Source of the DNA: Zetaproteobacteria bacterium
GTDB taxonomy: Bacteria; Bdellovibrionota_B; Oligoflexia; Oligoflexales; Bog-1112
Length of the DNA stretch: 38,828 bases
Assembly (NCBI GenBank): GCA_028817975.1
Contig: JAPPOJ010000262.1
Coordinates: 1 to 38,828, forward strand
Direction of reading: 5' to 3'
This document shows positions 39 through 14,018 of this stretch, in pieces. The position numbers were made by a program, and so were the translations under genes. The notes beneath the pieces are model-generated. The model worked only from the letters and a program-made list of their open reading frames with translations. It did not search any database and was not told the DNA's origin. How positions within the stretch are numbered: position 1 is the first letter of the stretch; each line of letters starts with the position of its first letter.

Positions 39-1898
39 GTGCAGCTTAAACGTTATTGTCGGAGTTATCGATTGCAAAATATTATAGAAGATAAATCGGT
101 TCCAAGCCCTTTTCCTGTGGGGGCTTGGGGCGAAGAGCTAGGCAAGTATTCAGAGTCAGATCGTAAGTGGTTGCTTCATGCTGCAAGTGTTGAGAAAATG
201 GAAGTCAATTTCTTGGCTGCAGATGATAATGAACAAAAGTTGTTACGTAAGTTTTTGCGTCAGGAAAAAAAGATACCTTCTTTGGCCGAGCTGCTAGCTT
301 TGAATAGTAACTCTTTGCTAGAGCGGCGAGGCTGGGGGAAAACCGCAGCCAAGAGATTGGCAGCGTTTCAGCTGCGCTTGTCGGCAAGCTTGCTGGAGAA
401 CCGAGACAATCTGTTGTCTTTGGTGCAGGATAATTCAAAGCCAGCGCCTATCGTATTTCGTAAGGTGGCCAACTTCGATTTGGGTTGGATTGATGAGGCT
501 TTGGTCGCGGATATGGATTATGGCTTAGCCTGTCTTTCTGAAGAGATGAGGACTATTGCCCGTGGTCGTTGGGCTTACCAGTCCGAGGCGATGTCTCTAG
601 AAGAAATTGGGATGAAGTTTGATAAAACACGTGAGCGTGTGCGGCAGCTGCAAGAAGATTTCAATCGCACGATTTGTATTAGTCTGCGGGTTGGGGGGCA
701 GTTTCTCCGCCATAATCTTAAGCGTTTTCCTGAGTCTTCTGCCAGCCAGTTGCTACCAAAGTTTTTTGCGCGTTTCACCAACCAAAAGCGTTTTTATCAG
801 TTTTTAGATATGTGCTGTGGACTCACTGGGAAGGAAAGCTTTCTAGAATCTCAGTGGATTGACTTTCAACAGATATCTTTGGGGGAGTTAGAAGCTTTTT
901 ATGCCAGTGTTGCCGGCCCTTATAACCGAGTGGACCTGCTTTTGGCGATTCAGAATATTTATAAGTTTAGCCCTTTGCAAGCTGGTGAGTGGCTTGACCA
1001 CTTGATTTGTATAGGGCGTTTGGTTCCTTCAGGAGGGGGGCTGTATCCCCATGGGTTGCATAAAAATATTGCGGTAGCTCATGCGTTGCTGAGCTATCCT
1101 GAGGGGTTACACTGGACTCAAGTTTATCGTGAAATTCAGCGTAAAAACTTGCTGCGTGTTCAGCTGAATGACCAGCGCTTGGATGCCTCATTTACGGAAA
1201 ATCAGTTTATTTATCTTGTGAACCAAGGGACTTACTGTCATCGCCGCTTTATGAAAGTTTCGTCGGCGCAGGCTGAAAAGTTGATTAGTTGGACCCGCTC
1301 GCGCTTAAGCCTTTCTCCTGGCGAGAAGTTTCACCTTTTGGGTCTGTGGCAGGAGCTATGTTCTCAGCAGGGTGAGGTGTGTGATTATTTTCACTACCGC
1401 CATGTCATTTCTGTCTATGGTGAAAAATTTGGTGTCTATTTTAGTGGTGCGTCTCGGAATGACACTGTTTCTATGGAAGAGAATGCGGTAAAGAAGACGA
1501 GTCGTTCGGATGTTTTGAACGTGTTGATTCAAGCTGGATGTGTGCTCCATTACGACGAGATTATGTCACGTTTAGGGCGTCGTGGATCAAGTTTGGTCTT
1601 AAATGCTTTGTACGCTTTGCGTGAAGAGCGTCAGGTTGTTTTTCTTGGCAGACAACGCTACGCCACCTTGGATGTTGCTTTTGCAAAACTGAATATTGCC
1701 AAAGCCTCCGACCTTGTCATCGCGACCTGTAAAAGTAGAGATGGTATTGCTCGTATGGAAACGTTAGTGCAGGTGTTGAATCAGAAATTCGGTCTCCAAG
1801 AGTCTCGATCCTTTTATTCTGCCTTTTTGCGTATGTTTGGCTCCTTAAATGGTTGGACTGTAGAGTCTGGGCGCGTAAAATTACGCAGTCGAGCTTAA
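39..1898 (+). CDS. Orphan DNA-binding protein with alpha-CTD-like HhH segment and sigma-70 region 4-like HTH; remainder unknown, possibly winged-helix
   Basis: 619 aa ORF. 'SLAELLALNSNSLLERRGWGKTAAKRLAAFQ' resembles RNAP alpha-CTD; 'LSEEMRTIARGRWAYQSEAMSLEEIGMKFDKTRERVRQLQEDFNRTI' closely matches sigma region 4 (TRERVRQ). The called GTG immediately follows an in-frame TGA, so the true start may be downstream. Confidence 0.75.
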   Translation: MQLKRYCRSYRLQNIIEDKSVPSPFPVGAWGEELGKYSESDRKWLLHAASVEKMEVNFLAADDNEQKLLRKFLRQEKKIPSLAELLALNSNSLLERRGWGKTAAKRLAAFQLRLSASLLENRDNLLSLVQDNSKPAPIVFRKVANFDLGWIDEALVADMDYGLACLSEEMRTIARGRWAYQSEAMSLEEIGMKFDKTRERVRQLQEDFNRTICISLRVGGQFLRHNLKRFPESSASQLLPKFFARFTNQKRFYQFLDMCCGLTGKESFLESQWIDFQQISLGELEAFYASVAGPYNRVDLLLAIQNIYKFSPLQAGEWLDHLICIGRLVPSGGGLYPHGLHKNIAVAHALLSYPEGLHWTQVYREIQRKNLLRVQLNDQRLDASFTENQFIYLVNQGTYCHRRFMKVSSAQAEKLISWTRSRLSLSPGEKFHLLGLWQELCSQQGEVCDYFHYRHVISVYGEKFGVYFSGASRNDTVSMEENAVKKTSRSDVLNVLIQAGCVLHYDEIMSRLGRRGSSLVLNALYALREERQVVFLGRQRYATLDVAFAKLNIAKASDLVIATCKSRDGIARMETLVQVLNQKFGLQESRSFYSAFLRMFGSLNGWTVESGRVKLRSRA

Positions 1899-6195: not shown

Positions 6196-6819
6196 ATGGT
6201 CTTGCGATTTTGTTGGATTGCGTTGACAGCAACTTGTTTGTTGATGAGTGGCAGCAGTTACGCTTGGTGGATGTGGACACCTGGTGACCATGTCGATGAC
6301 TCGACACAGAATATGTTTGACTATGGCTATCACCCCAAGCAGCCTATCGATTTTAGCCACGAGCTGCACGCGGGTAAGCGAGAAATACCTTGTCAGTATT
6401 GCCATTCTGCAGCAAGGCGGTCCATCTCTGCTGGGATTCCAAGTATGCATACCTGTATGGGGTGCCATCAGTACGTGCGTACGGATAAAGAACCCATTCA
6501 ATTTTTGACCCAGAAGTATCAGGAACAAGACCCTATTCGTTGGACTAAAGTAAACGACCTCCCCGACTATGTCAGGTTTAGTCATCAAGCTCATCTTGGT
6601 GCTAAGGATCATGAAGGGAAGCTGCTACTCGGTGAGGACGAAGATCAGGTTTGTATCGCGTGTCATGGTCCAGTAAAGGAGATGACGACCTATGCGCAAT
6701 GGACGCCGTTGCAAATGGGGTGGTGTATTAGCTGTCATAATCAAAAACGTGAACCGGAATCCCCAGGAGCAGAGCCAAAGAATTTCGCTGCTGTGTCATG
6801 TAATACTTGTCATTATTAG
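6196..6819 (+). CDS. actA: Alternative complex III pentaheme cytochrome c subunit ActA
   Basis: 207 aa; signal-like N-terminus; five CxxCH motifs (CQYCH, CMGCH, CIACH, CISCH, CNTCH); first gene of act operon; SD AAGGAA. Confidence 0.93.
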   Translation: MVLRFCWIALTATCLLMSGSSYAWWMWTPGDHVDDSTQNMFDYGYHPKQPIDFSHELHAGKREIPCQYCHSAARRSISAGIPSMHTCMGCHQYVRTDKEPIQFLTQKYQEQDPIRWTKVNDLPDYVRFSHQAHLGAKDHEGKLLLGEDEDQVCIACHGPVKEMTTYAQWTPLQMGWCISCHNQKREPESPGAEPKNFAAVSCNTCHY

Positions 6820-6872
6820 AGTTAGGTGAATTGGGTTTAGAATAGTAACGATTGATTAAATAGGTTTTATCG

Positions 6873-6906
6873 ATGCTTGCTTGTGGAAACAGATGTCCAC
6901 TAGCAT
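6873..6906 (+). other. Intercistronic hairpin between actA and actB
   Basis: ATGCT (6873-6877)/AGCAT (6902-6906) and GTGGA (6883-6887)/TCCAC (6896-6900) with an internal loop. Confidence 0.35.
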
Positions 6907-6937
6907 GACAACCTTCCTGTAGATGCGGAGAGTTGCT

Positions 6938-9900
6938 TTGAGTAAACAAGAAGTGGACGAATTGGCAAAGCTTGCAGAAAAACCGGAAGTCTTTGCTCCG
7001 AGTGGATCTTTTGAGGCTCCTGTCCGTGATGTGAAGCCTGGTGAGTACTATGCTTATGCTGAAGAGCGTCTCCCTGGCATTACGGAGGTTGAGGGCTCTG
7101 TGGAGGCCGACCTACCTGTAAGCCCTCAGGAGAAACTGGCCACGCAGGGCTTCTCTCTGGATCGTCGAGACGTGTTGCGGCTTTTCGGTGCGAGCGCGGT
7201 AGCTTCTTCTGCAGGCTGTATTCAAAGGCCGGAAGAGCATATCGTTTCTTATATACGTAAGCCGCGTGATCAAGTTCCGGGAGTTGCGACTCACTATGCT
7301 TCCACATGTGACGGCTGCGCCTCGAGTTGTGGCATTGTCGTTAAGACCAAGGGTGGCCGTCCGGTAAAAATTGAAGGTCATGATGAGCATCCCGTGAGTC
7401 AAGGGGCTTTGTGTGGCGTCGGTCAGGCAGGCCTGCAGGCTTTATATCATCCTGAGCGACTCAAAGGTCCTCGGGTGCGTGTTGGAGAACGTTTAGACGA
7501 AACGACTTGGGATGATGTTTTTGAGCGCATTGCGAAGACGCTTGGAAGTAAGGCCAAGATAGGTATTCTTACGGGCGCACCGTCTGGACATGCTCTCGAA
7601 TTTTATAAGGAAGTCCTGTCTAACATGGGCCAAGGTGAGGATCAACTCTACACCTGGGAGCCAAATGGCTTGTTTACTTCGATTGCGAAGGCCCACGAGT
7701 TCGCCTTTGGTGAGCTAGATCTGCCTCGGGTAGAGCTAAGCTCTGCTCAGTTAGTTGTTGGCATTTCTTCTGATTTTCTGGATGTTGGGACCGCTCCTGT
7801 TTTTCATGGGAAGGGCTTTTCGCGTGGACATGCCTATGCTTTGGGTAAACGTGGTAGGTTTGTGGCTTTTGAAAGCAACTATACGCTTACAGGAGCGAAG
7901 GCCGATGAGCGTCATGTTATTAACCCTGGGGCAGAGGTTCTCGTAACTTTGCTGTTGGTACGCTCCCTGATGGAGGAGCCTGGCTCGCGTGGTTCTGTAG
8001 CCCAAAGAAAACAAATAGCCGATATTTTGGAGTTGCAAAAGTCTGTTTTAGACGAAGCTTATGCAAAAGTTGGTATTGAGAAGACTGTATTTGATGAGCT
8101 CGCGCACAGCCTACTACAAATGCCAAGTGTCATCCTAGCGGGTGGTAGCTCGGTGTTTGATCACAATGCGACCCAGCTCCAGCTTGCAGCGATATTTGCG
8201 AACATCTTAATAGGCTCCTATGGTGCGACTCTGATGTTTGAGGATGGCTGGATGCCGTGTCCTGTCGTGCCGGGGGACCTGAAACGTCTTTTAAGTAATG
8301 CAGAAGATCTCGACGCGCTGATTGTGGTGGACACCAATCCTATTTTCTCGGCTCCGCCTAGTTGGGAAGTTAGGAAAGTGCTTGAGAGGATTCCATTTGT
8401 AGTTTCTATCCAGAACTTTCCAAATGAAATGGACGATGTTGCTGAGTTTGTGTTACCGAATAATCACTACTTAGAATCTTGGGGAGATGCCCAGCCTGTA
8501 GCCGGATTCTGGTCTATGCGTCAGCCAGTTGTGCGCTCCACTACCAATAGCCGTCAAGCGGAAGATATCTTGTTATGGGTCTTGGCCTACATGGAGAAAA
8601 GTCTTCCTTATAAAGATTATCGGGCGTATCTCAGAAAACGTTGGCAGAAAATCTACGATATGTCCGGTACGAAGGTTTCTTATGACCACTTTTTGCAGGC
8701 CGTTACTCGGCGTGGCTTCGTGGGTCGCTTGCAGACACGTACTGTGGCAGAGCTGTCTAATGTGAGAGATCACTTTCGTGGCCTTCCTGAGCCTTTGACA
8801 GAGCTTAGTCTTATTTCTCCTTTAGACTCGCGACTACATGACGGGCGTTATGCTCACTTGCCAGTGCTCCAGGAGGCAGGAGATCCGATCACGACGATCA
8901 CTTGGGACACTTGGGCGGGATTTAACCCACATACAATGGAGGCCCGTGGGATACGTCAAGGGCAAGTTGTGAAAGTTAAATCCAGTGTTGGCGAAATAGA
9001 AGTGACGGCTTTCGCAGTTCCTGGAGTGCATAAGAATCTTGTGGTTGTTCCCCGAGGGAATGGACATCAAGATCACCGCTCGACGATCTCTTATAAAAAT
9101 GGTGTGAATCCACTTCCGTTGTTTTTGAGGGCTGAAGATCGATATAGTGGGCAGCCGGTGACGTCGAATCAAAAGATCGAAGTTGTGGTGACAGAGAAAA
9201 GATACCGTTTAGCCGCTTTACAAAAGACGTCTGACATTGGTGAGCGTTCCGATATTATTAAGAAACACTCGTTGGCTACTTTAAAGCGTAACTTTAATAA
9301 GAAGCGTGACTTAGATCATGTTCCAGACCTCTTTCCTAAGCTGGAGGAGGGAGAGTACAAGTGGGGTATGTCGATCGACTTAGATCGTTGTACGGGTTGT
9401 GGTGCCTGTATGATTGCATGCTCCGTTGAGAATAATGTTCCCCAGGTTGGGCGTGAGCAAATTCTTCTTGGGCGTACGATGCATTGGATTCGTTTGGATC
9501 GCTACTTTCATGGGGATTTGAATAATCCTAAAGCAACTTTCCAGCCGGTCATGTGTCAGCATTGCAATCATGCTCCATGTGAGGCGGTGTGTCCTGTCTA
9601 TGCAACGACACATGATGAAGAAGGCATGAATGCGATGACCTACAACCGCTGTGTAGGAACACGCTACTGTGCAAACGCCTGTCCTTATAAAGTGCGTCGC
9701 TTTAACTGGTGGACGCATAAGTGGGGAGAAATGGGGAAACGACAAATGGATCGGAATCCCAGAGCCGTGAATCCAGATGTGACGGTTCGTACGCGTGGAG
9801 TGATGGAGAAGTGCTCCTTATGTGTTGGGCGTATCCGGGATGCAAAGCATGTTGCCAAAGCTGAAGGGCGTAAAGTGAAGGATCGCGACGTTCGGACGGC

Positions 9901-10123
9901 TTGCCAGCAAACGTGTCCTGCGGATGCTATTGAGTTTGGCAACGTCAAGGACCCGACAAGTCGTATTTCGAGTTTGCGGACACATTACCGTGCGTATACC
10001 ATGTTGAATGGAGATCCAGATCACCATCATTATGGTTTAAAGACGCTTCCTAGTGTAAACTACTTGGCGGAAGTGACGCTTAAAGAAGCCCCTGGTAAAA
10101 AGGAGACTGGCAGTGGGCACTAG
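6938..10123 (+). CDS. actB: Alternative complex III ActB (molybdopterin oxidoreductase-like/iron-sulfur protein)
   Basis: ORF given as 6923..10123; TTG at 6938 has a better SD (GGAG at 6927-6930). Twin-Arg segment 'LDRRDVLRLFGASAVASSAGC'; ferredoxin Cys clusters 'CTGCGACMIAC', 'CQHCNHAPCEAVCP', 'CVGTRYCANACPY', 'CSLCVGRI...CQQTCPADAI'. Confidence 0.93.
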   Translation: MSKQEVDELAKLAEKPEVFAPSGSFEAPVRDVKPGEYYAYAEERLPGITEVEGSVEADLPVSPQEKLATQGFSLDRRDVLRLFGASAVASSAGCIQRPEEHIVSYIRKPRDQVPGVATHYASTCDGCASSCGIVVKTKGGRPVKIEGHDEHPVSQGALCGVGQAGLQALYHPERLKGPRVRVGERLDETTWDDVFERIAKTLGSKAKIGILTGAPSGHALEFYKEVLSNMGQGEDQLYTWEPNGLFTSIAKAHEFAFGELDLPRVELSSAQLVVGISSDFLDVGTAPVFHGKGFSRGHAYALGKRGRFVAFESNYTLTGAKADERHVINPGAEVLVTLLLVRSLMEEPGSRGSVAQRKQIADILELQKSVLDEAYAKVGIEKTVFDELAHSLLQMPSVILAGGSSVFDHNATQLQLAAIFANILIGSYGATLMFEDGWMPCPVVPGDLKRLLSNAEDLDALIVVDTNPIFSAPPSWEVRKVLERIPFVVSIQNFPNEMDDVAEFVLPNNHYLESWGDAQPVAGFWSMRQPVVRSTTNSRQAEDILLWVLAYMEKSLPYKDYRAYLRKRWQKIYDMSGTKVSYDHFLQAVTRRGFVGRLQTRTVAELSNVRDHFRGLPEPLTELSLISPLDSRLHDGRYAHLPVLQEAGDPITTITWDTWAGFNPHTMEARGIRQGQVVKVKSSVGEIEVTAFAVPGVHKNLVVVPRGNGHQDHRSTISYKNGVNPLPLFLRAEDRYSGQPVTSNQKIEVVVTEKRYRLAALQKTSDIGERSDIIKKHSLATLKRNFNKKRDLDHVPDLFPKLEEGEYKWGMSIDLDRCTGCGACMIACSVENNVPQVGREQILLGRTMHWIRLDRYFHGDLNNPKATFQPVMCQHCNHAPCEAVCPVYATTHDEEGMNAMTYNRCVGTRYCANACPYKVRRFNWWTHKWGEMGKRQMDRNPRAVNPDVTVRTRGVMEKCSLCVGRIRDAKHVAKAEGRKVKDRDVRTACQQTCPADAIEFGNVKDPTSRISSLRTHYRAYTMLNGDPDHHHYGLKTLPSVNYLAEVTLKEAPGKKETGSGH

Positions 10124-10213
10124 TAGAGCTTTATCTCCAGCGTAGAATAGTAGTTAGGTTTCTTGGTATCTATTTGGCAGGGCAGCTACAGAGAAATAGT
10201 TTGGGGTGCTTTC

Positions 10214-11563
10214 ATGAGTGACGCGGTTGATTGGGATAAGTCGGTTTCGGACGTAAATAACGGTGTGCTGGCGGCCACTGGAAAGCCTCACCCTACATTT
10301 TATGTTGCTTTAGGGCTTTCACTAGTGTGTTTAGTGATTGGTATTGTCGCTTGGGCTTTGCAGATCACTTATGGTACAGGTATGGCTGGCTTGAATAGCC
10401 CTGTGTATTGGGGAGTGTATATCACCGACTTTGTTTTTTGGGTCGGGATCGGACATGCTGGTACGCTTATCTCAGCGATTCTGTTTTTGTTTCGAGCCAA
10501 GTGGCGCAACAGTATTAATCGCTCTGCAGAAGCGATGACTGTTTTTGCGGTTATCACGGCTGGCCTCTTCCCTTTGATTCATGTTGGGAGGGTATGGTTG
10601 GCAGCGTATTGGATGGTACCTCTCCCCAATACGAATAACCTTTGGGTGAATTTTCGTTCGCCATTGATGTGGGATGTCTTCGCGATTTCGACCTACCTGA
10701 CGGTTTCTTTAACGTTTTGGTATATGGGCCTTGTTCCTGATTTGGCTTCGATGCGGGATCGTACGCGCGGGTATAAGCGTTTAATATACGGCTTTCTTTC
10801 CTTTGGATGGACCGGCACACTGCGCCAGTGGCACCATTACGAAGCCGGTTATGGGTTTTTAGCAGCCCTCGCCACACCTCTGGTCCTTAGTGTACACTCC
10901 ATCGTTTCTTGGGATTTTGCGATGTCTGTGCAACCTGGTTGGCATACGACGATTTTCCCACCTTATTTCGTCGCAGGTGCGATCTTGTCGGGCTGCGCCA
11001 TGGTTTATACTTTGGTACTTCCCTTCCGTAAAATGTTTAATTTGGAAGGCTTCATTCGCCATGAGCACTTGGAGGCTTTGATTAAACTGACTTTGCTGAC
11101 GTCGACAATCGTTGCTTATGCTTATGGGATTGAGTTTTTCATTGCCTGGTACTCTGGAAACCCTTACGAGTGGATTATCTTTCAGAAACGGGCATACGGA
11201 CCATATGCTTTTTACTTCTGGGTCATGACGTTTTGTAACTGCGTCTTTCCGCTTGCCTTCTGGTCGAAAAAGGTGCGTAACAATACGACGGCCTGCTTTA
11301 TCATTTGTGTCTTGGTGAATGTGGGGATGTGGTTCGAAAGGTACAACATTATTATTTCTAGTTTGGTGGAGGATTTCATCCCTGGGTCTTGGGGGCATTA
11401 TGAGCCTTCTCTAACAGAAATAGCCATCACCATTGGTAGCTTTGGCTGGTTCTTTACCTGGTTATTGATCTTCTGCCGATTCTTTCCGTTTGTATCTATG
11501 TCGGAGTTGAAGCTCATTATGCCTAAACCAATGCGGCCTAAAGACAAGTCGTTAGCAGCATGA
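10214..11563 (+). CDS. actC: Alternative complex III NrfD-like quinone-interacting membrane subunit ActC
   Basis: Polytopic membrane protein in act order; ATG at 10214 (MSDAVDWDKSVSD) more plausible than the ORF-track start 10163. Confidence 0.93.
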   Translation: MSDAVDWDKSVSDVNNGVLAATGKPHPTFYVALGLSLVCLVIGIVAWALQITYGTGMAGLNSPVYWGVYITDFVFWVGIGHAGTLISAILFLFRAKWRNSINRSAEAMTVFAVITAGLFPLIHVGRVWLAAYWMVPLPNTNNLWVNFRSPLMWDVFAISTYLTVSLTFWYMGLVPDLASMRDRTRGYKRLIYGFLSFGWTGTLRQWHHYEAGYGFLAALATPLVLSVHSIVSWDFAMSVQPGWHTTIFPPYFVAGAILSGCAMVYTLVLPFRKMFNLEGFIRHEHLEALIKLTLLTSTIVAYAYGIEFFIAWYSGNPYEWIIFQKRAYGPYAFYFWVMTFCNCVFPLAFWSKKVRNNTTACFIICVLVNVGMWFERYNIIISSLVEDFIPGSWGHYEPSLTEIAITIGSFGWFFTWLLIFCRFFPFVSMSELKLIMPKPMRPKDKSLAA

Positions 11564-11583
11564 TCTACTGAGAGGAGTAGGAA

Positions 11584-12114
11584 ATGGCCCGGGAAAAGGT
11601 ACCTGGAATTGTGGCTATCTTTAGCTATTTGGATGATATCTGCAAGACGGTGGAGACAATTGATAAGCGCCGCGATTTTGATGGTCATGAAGTGTATAGT
11701 CATACCTCTTACCATGAGTTGATCCACCTGGCTGAGGATAAATATGGTTCTAGTGAAGTCAAATGGTTTACCCTAGTGGGGGCCTTGACAGGAGTTTGCT
11801 CAGGCTTTGCGATGTGCCTGTGGATGGATTACGATTGGCCTATTGTCGTCGGCGGAAAAACAGCTGGGATTTATTCACTGCCAGCATATGTGGTCTTTGG
11901 CTTCGAGTTGATGATTTTGCTAGGGGCTTTAGCCACGATTCTTGGCATGTTTGTCATGGGACGTTTTCCCAACCCCAAAGATACTGTTTTGGACCCCAGA
12001 CTTTCGGATGATAAGTTTGCGGTTTACTTACCGGGGGTGAGTCCTGACAGCGAGCAGGCAAAGCTCTTAAAGGATTTGGGTGCGGAAGAAGTGTACTCGA
12101 CAACAGGTCGGTAG
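11584..12114 (+). CDS. actD: Alternative complex III subunit ActD (DUF3341)
   Basis: 176 aa with two hydrophobic helices; sequence pattern and position between actC and actE. Confidence 0.92.
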   Translation: MAREKVPGIVAIFSYLDDICKTVETIDKRRDFDGHEVYSHTSYHELIHLAEDKYGSSEVKWFTLVGALTGVCSGFAMCLWMDYDWPIVVGGKTAGIYSLPAYVVFGFELMILLGALATILGMFVMGRFPNPKDTVLDPRLSDDKFAVYLPGVSPDSEQAKLLKDLGAEEVYSTTGR

Positions 12115-12170
12115 GAGAATTAGGTGATACGACGCTTTGAAAGTGGACTGAAAAAATTAGGGGCAAAGTC

Positions 12171-12713
12171 ATGATCTTGGAACGGATGCGTTGTGGTGCT
12201 GCTGTCAGCTTACTTTCAGTGCTTGTCGTTGTGGGCTGCAAGAATAATGCAACAGAGACGAAGTGGCAGTATATGCCCGATATGGCCGATGCGCCTGCAG
12301 TGAAATCCCAGCTAAATTACTTACTGCCTCCAGAGCATTCTGTAGCGTATCAGGGAGTGCTGTATCCTCCAGATGAAGAGTTGGAAATGTGGGAGAAAAG
12401 GTTTCATAATCCTTATGTGGGGCACCCTAAGGAAGATATTTATCGTGCGGAAGGAGCAAAGCTATTTGCTTTTAACTGTGTGCCTTGTCATGGTGCAGAT
12501 GGCAAGGGCGAGGGGACGGTCACCGATGAGTTTCCAAAGCCACCTAGTATTGTGAATGAACTCAACTTGCAACGTCCGGACGGCTTTTTCTTTCATAAGA
12601 TCACTGTTGGAGGTCCACTCATGCCGAGTCGCGCGGAAGATACGTACCCTCACGAGCGTTGGAAGATTATTTTGCATTTGCGTCGTTTGCAGGAAAAATA
12701 TGCGAGCGAATAA
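12171..12713 (+). CDS. actE: Alternative complex III monoheme cytochrome c lipoprotein ActE
   Basis: 180 aa; lipobox-like 'VLVVVGC'; single CxxCH 'CVPCHGADGKGEG'. Confidence 0.92.
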   Translation: MILERMRCGAAVSLLSVLVVVGCKNNATETKWQYMPDMADAPAVKSQLNYLLPPEHSVAYQGVLYPPDEELEMWEKRFHNPYVGHPKEDIYRAEGAKLFAFNCVPCHGADGKGEGTVTDEFPKPPSIVNELNLQRPDGFFFHKITVGGPLMPSRAEDTYPHERWKIILHLRRLQEKYASE

Positions 12714-12767
12714 GCCAGGAATGGACCCTGATAAGCAGATTTATATCACCAGCCAGAGGTTTAGTTT

Positions 12768-14018
12768 ATGAAGTATGAAGAGCTTTTTGCAAATCGGCAA
12801 AGGTTACTTTTAACTCAGGCACCTACCACAAAGGCTATCTTTATTGCGATGGTAGCTGTGGGGGTTGTCGGTTTTCTTTTTGGTGTTTTATCGCCAGGGT
12901 CGGGAAAAAGAGCTTGGGCCAGTTTGTTGCTCAATGCAATGTTTTTTTACTCCTTGGCTTTGGGTGGTGTCGCTTTTGGCAATATGCAAGATGTTGTGGG
13001 TGCTTTATGGGGAAGGCCGATTAAAAGGATTCATGAGTCCTTTGGCTGCTTCTTGCCATGGATGAGCTTAGTTCTGGCGGCTTTTATTTTGGCGGTTCGC
13101 TTTGATCTTGCGGATGCTGGTAAGGTCTACTCTTGGGTTGCAGACCCTCATATTTTAGACCATTTTCACGGAAAAGATGTGTGGTTGCAGGTAGACTTTA
13201 TGCTGGTTCGTGACTTGCTTTGTTTAGCGGTTACTTATGGCTTGGTACGTTGGCACCTGGGGATGACACACACGCGTGATCAGCTATTTATGGAGGGTAA
13301 ACAAGAGCAGGCTCAGAAGTATGGGGAAGAAGTCCGGCAGAAATTGAGGCATTGGTCAGCCCCAGTGATGGTCGTATACTCTCTGTGTTTTTCTGTTATT
13401 TGTTTTGATTTAACCATGTCACTTGCACCAACCTGGTTTTCCACACTATGGGCGGGTTGGAGCTTTGCGATTATGATGCATATTTTAATGGCATCGACGC
13501 TTTTATTTCTCTTTTTCTTTAAAAACCGTGACATGGGTCAGTATATTAAGCGTCAGCAATTTCATGACATTGGTAAGTTGCTATTTGGTTTTACGGTATT
13601 TTTTGCGTATCTGACCTATGCACACGTCCTGACATATTGGTACGGGAACGTACCTGAGGAGACGTCCTATTTCCACTTGCGCCTTGAGCAGCCTTGGAAG
13701 ACGATGATTATGTTTTCTCCGTTGTGGTGGTTCTTTGTACCTTTCATTTCTTTAATTTGGAAGTCCAGCAAGTGGACGACCTGGGTTGCGATTCCGGTGA
13801 GCGTGGTGGTGCTATGTGCACAATGGTTCAACTATGTTCTTGTGGTCATCCCAGAGGTTGTTCCTGGTACGGAGTGGAATGGCCCGTGGGTCGAATTACC
13901 TATCTTTGTGGGCTGTCTCGGAGGCTTTTTGTGGAGTTTGAGTAGCATTTGGGGTAAAGTTCCTTTGCTAAGTGTGGCAGACCCTTTACTGTTGCAATAC
14001 TATGATGAGGCGCACTAG
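12768..14018 (+). CDS. actF: Alternative complex III membrane subunit ActF
   Basis: 416 aa polytopic protein, last gene of act operon; characteristic 'FFKNRDMGQYIKRQQFHDIGKLLFGFTVFFAYLTYAHVLTYWYGNVPEET'. Confidence 0.93.
   Translation: MKYEELFANRQRLLLTQAPTTKAIFIAMVAVGVVGFLFGVLSPGSGKRAWASLLLNAMFFYSLALGGVAFGNMQDVVGALWGRPIKRIHESFGCFLPWMSLVLAAFILAVRFDLADAGKVYSWVADPHILDHFHGKDVWLQVDFMLVRDLLCLAVTYGLVRWHLGMTHTRDQLFMEGKQEQAQKYGEEVRQKLRHWSAPVMVVYSLCFSVICFDLTMSLAPTWFSTLWAGWSFAIMMHILMASTLLFLFFFKNRDMGQYIKRQQFHDIGKLLFGFTVFFAYLTYAHVLTYWYGNVPEETSYFHLRLEQPWKTMIMFSPLWWFFVPFISLIWKSSKWTTWVAIPVSVVVLCAQWFNYVLVVIPEVVPGTEWNGPWVELPIFVGCLGGFLWSLSSIWGKVPLLSVADPLLLQYYDEAH

Follow-up and report, generated by a model that had tools for sequence, protein, structure and literature searches.

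A rare bacterial protein family with a sigma-70 region 4, a putative alpha-CTD-like helix-hairpin-helix and a conserved C-terminal tail

The open reading frame (ORF) at positions 39–1898 (+ strand) of the window, as we call the whole 38 828-nucleotide stretch of DNA analyzed here, encodes a 619-aa member of a rare, uncharacterized bacterial family that combines sigma-70 region 4 with an alpha-CTD-like helix-hairpin-helix (HhH) and a conserved tail. The protein is probably a DNA-binding regulator or targeting subunit, and it cannot start transcription in the manner of a sigma factor. A preliminary description had called it an orphan; three full-length relatives were found, and the window protein is a further member of a family already named by RefSeq. 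What that description observed is otherwise partly confirmed, and its interpretation partly supported.

Family membership and gene start

The three full-length relatives share 20–27% identity with the window protein. The relative from Escherichia coli and Salmonella (816 aa) is annotated in RefSeq as a “sigma factor-like helix-turn-helix DNA-binding protein” (WP_000410983.1 / WP_088376241.1). It was recovered by tblastn against plasmids with 82% of the query covered (24% identity, E = 3e-35), and pairwise comparison showed collinear similarity over window residues 49–606 (24% identity, E = 2e-43), including both the sigma region 4 helix-turn-helix (HTH) and the C-terminal module. Profile searches of whole genomes yielded the other two relatives, of 750 aa (genome G242; 27% over 416 aligned columns) and 692 aa (genome G519; 23% over 402 columns). 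Across the four full-length members, 41 of the 619 window positions are invariant.

The family looks rare. Profile searches returned one relative besides the window protein among 383 genomes, none besides that of G242 among 85 genomes of its phylum, and one among 195 genomes of another phylum. No close paralogue was found in the window's own genome, no relatives were found in scans of viral contigs or in phage searches, and all that a scan of genome contigs recovered was an ordinary sigma factor (L005). Matches in 98 genomes of the phylum of G061 were rejected as relatives, as they lay only over or near that part of the profile which covers region 4; RpoD with an insertion accounted for the best two of the 98. 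At L035:169–2007 and L036:1465–3303 (genomes G903 and G904), RpoD-like sigma factors carry ∼330 inserted residues downstream of their N-terminal helix. Literature searches turned up no paper on fusions of the alpha-CTD/region 4 kind.

The ORF is open for 619 codons from GTG39, as previously described. The annotated start is doubtful, because GTG39 comes directly after an in-frame TGA (in-frame stops lie at 21–23 and 36–38), the contig begins at base 1, that is, at the sigma-like gene itself, the full-length relatives are 73–197 residues longer, and third-position GC is 0.34 in the first 53 codons vs 0.51 in the next 147. The true N-terminus is therefore uncertain, and no contig lying upstream could be identified from overlapping ends. 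The longer relatives, the contig edge and the two in-frame stops would also suit a decaying or 5′-truncated copy without function; we judge this clearly unlikely, given that 619 codons are open, that codon-position composition is normal past the first ∼53 codons and that the family motifs are kept.

Domain architecture

The window protein has a true sigma-70 region 4 at residues 161–210 (519–668; this and all features below are on the + strand), an assignment that is solid. PF04545 (Sigma70_r4) was its sole Pfam match (residues 163–205, 28.3 bits vs a cut-off of 24.1) and scored 32.5 bits for the ORF in the genome search, where three other Sigma70_r4 loci were found. Family profiles matched region 4 of SigA/RpoD structures in the PDB at 2.6e-10 and 4e-13, the latter with a profile built from the four full-length members, and NCBIfam matches were mainly partial, to the region 4 end of sigma factors. 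Neither the window protein nor any full-length relative that was scanned gave a match to region 2 (core binding and −10 melting) or region 3. With no region 2, the protein is therefore not a sigma factor, and both the region 4 assignment and the missing region 2 of the preliminary description, from which it had concluded that this is unlikely to be a complete sigma factor, are upheld.

Invariant positions are enriched in the recognition-helix motif TRERVRQ (residues 197–203; 627–647), where four of seven positions (E199, R200, R202, and Q203) are invariant compared with 41/619 overall (hypergeometric P = 0.0005). These four residues, identical in all four full-length members, align with the E. 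coli sigma70 residues E585, R586, R588, and Q589, all located in the −35-reading helix. The equivalent of sigma70 R584 is R in three full-length members and H in the G519 protein.

Residues 67–115 (237–383) are suggestive of an alpha-CTD-like HhH. A 44-residue stretch within them aligns gap-free to the CTD of the genome's own RpoA (shuffle P = 0.013), and the segment aligns strongly to the second HhH of the E. coli relative (0/1000 shuffles). With a 3-row profile (window, E. coli, and G519), RNA polymerase (RNAP) alpha CTDs ranked top among PDB matches (11 of 21, best E = 0.024), the remainder being mostly other HhH proteins, while aligned segments of the first E. coli HhH and of the G242 and G519 proteins gave mixed HhH, alpha and unrelated matches. 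PF03118 had no match in the whole protein, in the isolated segment, or at the window ORF in a genome-wide search. The alpha-CTD-like segment proposed earlier is upheld as probable, with support from alignments and profiles that stay below threshold and none from Pfam. A shorter Aurantiacibacter relative carries PF03118 (1.3e-10) followed by PF04545 (3.8e-11), and the alpha-CTD/region 4 pairing is therefore real elsewhere.

The C-terminal module is conserved yet corresponds to no named domain (conserved core at residues 244–550; 768–1688). Pfam found no family in this part of the protein, and residues 244–619 hold 31 of the 41 invariant positions. Three motifs are present in most members: YPEGLxW and GxYxHRRF, which fall within a second candidate winged helix (residues 343–405; 1065–1253) whose fold we infer from the alignment, and DYxxxRH...GE...YFxGxSRxD, which corresponds to DYFxxRHxxSVxGE..YFxGxSRxDxVxxE at residues 449–480 (1383–1478). 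The first candidate winged helix (residues 281–337; 879–1049) was placed by a weak Hop2 winged-helix match and the alignment, and the third (residues 487–547; 1497–1679) by weak matches to Fur, LexA, and CooA. In total, the C-terminal profile gave five PDB matches, among them the DNA-binding domains of Fur, CooA, Hop2, and LexA; none scored better than E = 0.17, and they give no more than a hint of winged helices. Single-sequence AlphaFold2 models, one spanning the full length and one covering residues 60–218, had mean pLDDT values of 36 and 42, too low to be usable. The winged-helix/HARE-HTH-like repeats of the preliminary description are thus retained as a conserved module with possible winged helices; Pfam did not detect HARE-HTH in it.

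Possible roles and gene neighborhoods

Our preferred reading, to which we give a little less than an even chance, is a sequence-specific DNA-binding regulator at −35-like sites, built from promoter-reading parts. The region 4 HTH, which keeps the −35-reading residues of primary sigma factors, would be joined by one or two alpha-CTD-like HhH units contacting the adjacent minor groove or RNAP, and by the conserved C-terminal module, probably comprising about three winged helices. Binding would most likely occur at −35-like promoter sites; as regions 2 and 3 are missing, such a protein could not open promoters and would most likely act as a repressor or an RNAP-docking regulator. Of a sigma factor, the family retains the part that reads the −35 site, without the melting part; if its members bind promoters, it would be a stand-alone promoter reader.

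The region 4 matches, the invariant recognition-helix residues, the predominance of RNAP alpha among the HhH profile matches, the alpha-CTD/region 4 pairing in the shorter relative and the C-terminal profile matches, mostly to winged-helix (wHTH) or other HTH DNA-binding domains, count in favor of such a regulator. The stand-alone chromosomal position of the gene in the two distant relatives fits as well: the G242 and G519 neighborhoods contain no nuclease or helicase, and the neighboring ORFs read as metabolic and respiratory genes. Against a regulator, no conserved target or neighbor was found, conservation of the recognition-helix residues may reflect folding needs or non-specific binding, the alpha-CTD and winged-helix assignments in the window protein are sub-threshold, and the position of the E. 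coli gene behind a nuclease-helicase suggests a role other than transcription control.

The main rival is a restriction-type defense in which the family supplies the subunit for DNA recognition or sensing, directing or regulating an Mrr-nuclease/SF2-helicase at particular DNA; we regard this as possible, if somewhat unlikely. In E. coli (L016), a gene with Mrr_cat, ResIII, and Helicase_C domains (11771–13999) is followed after a 1-bp gap by the sigma-like gene (from 14001). At least 80% of the pair is present in 72 genomes, whereas the sigma-like gene reaches the same 80% threshold in 73, and the gene is patchy in the species (83/5426 genomes). The shorter relative with alpha-CTD and region 4 lies inside a PbeA/PbeC (Dnd-like) defense locus, and similar parts occur in published defense proteins, namely a DndH variant that carries a sigma-HTH (PMC10853773), PglW with an alpha-CTD-like domain and three wHTH (PMC12839542), and MzaA, described as a sigma factor (PMC9523054). 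However, the G242 and G519 genes have no nuclease or helicase neighbors, uvrC and uvrB occupy the downstream side in the window, and no close homologue of the E. coli Mrr-helicase was found in the window's genome (assembly ∼93% complete, with the contig starting at the sigma-like gene). The E. coli copies are near-identical and were therefore counted as about one event. A related proposal, which we consider improbable, casts the family as an immune or targeting factor guided by promoters, in which RNAP-derived −35/UP-element readers would bring a nuclease-helicase to DNA carrying active promoters (e.g. incoming phage or plasmid) or block its transcription.

Considered in its own right, the two-gene Mrr-helicase and sigma-like unit (L016:11771–16451; 72/5426 E. 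coli genomes) is a defense candidate. In PADLOC it scored best against generic models for type IV restriction and for helicases, with only a weak MzaA match for the sigma-like partner. The pairing makes a defense role directly testable in laboratory strains. In E. coli WG5, the unit is broken by IS3-type elements (L065:5001–9002), leaving a 636-bp sigma-like remnant. The Aurantiacibacter locus lies on a plasmid (L017:559–6591) and comprises PbeA, PbeC (DndD-like) and the 437-aa alpha-CTD/region 4 protein, a defense-associated fusion that may regulate the PbeA/PbeC system.

Downstream of the ORF, the convergent uvrC and uvrB genes raise a third reading, a DNA-repair or nucleoid-associated protein with general DNA-binding modules. 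Adjacency to uvrC and uvrB favors it, whereas their orientation is convergent and the neighborhood is not seen in relatives; a repair role drawn from this adjacency was rejected on the latter ground, and we hold the reading as a whole to be very improbable. Further along the window (6196–14018) is an operon resembling alternative complex III, with a multiheme cytochrome (QrcA-like), a MoCo/Fe-S fusion (QrcB/QrcC-like), a DsrP-like membrane protein, and three unassigned genes.

Comparison with known systems

Primary sigma factors (SigA/RpoD) have region 4 and its recognition helix in common with the window protein, which differs from them in giving no region 2 or 3 match and in its large unrelated C-terminal module. 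HARE-HTH proteins differ in that PF05066 has no match in the window protein; as a lead only, the 2012 work of Aravind and Iyer on HARE-HTH reportedly mentions bacterial proteins joining alpha-subunit and sigma features. The MzaA protein of the MZA anti-phage system shares a region 4 match, but over only ∼41 residues and with a score of 21 bits where the equivalog cut-off is 800, and a weak MzaA match was the only one in the PADLOC scan. In the C-terminal half of PglW (BREX type 2), an alpha-CTD-like domain is described ahead of the three wHTH modules (PMC12839542), whereas the kinase of PglW has no counterpart in the window protein. The E. coli relative has the same domain order as the window protein, and differs in its length of 816 aa, in a longer N-terminus with a further HhH, and in the position of its gene behind an Mrr-helicase gene.
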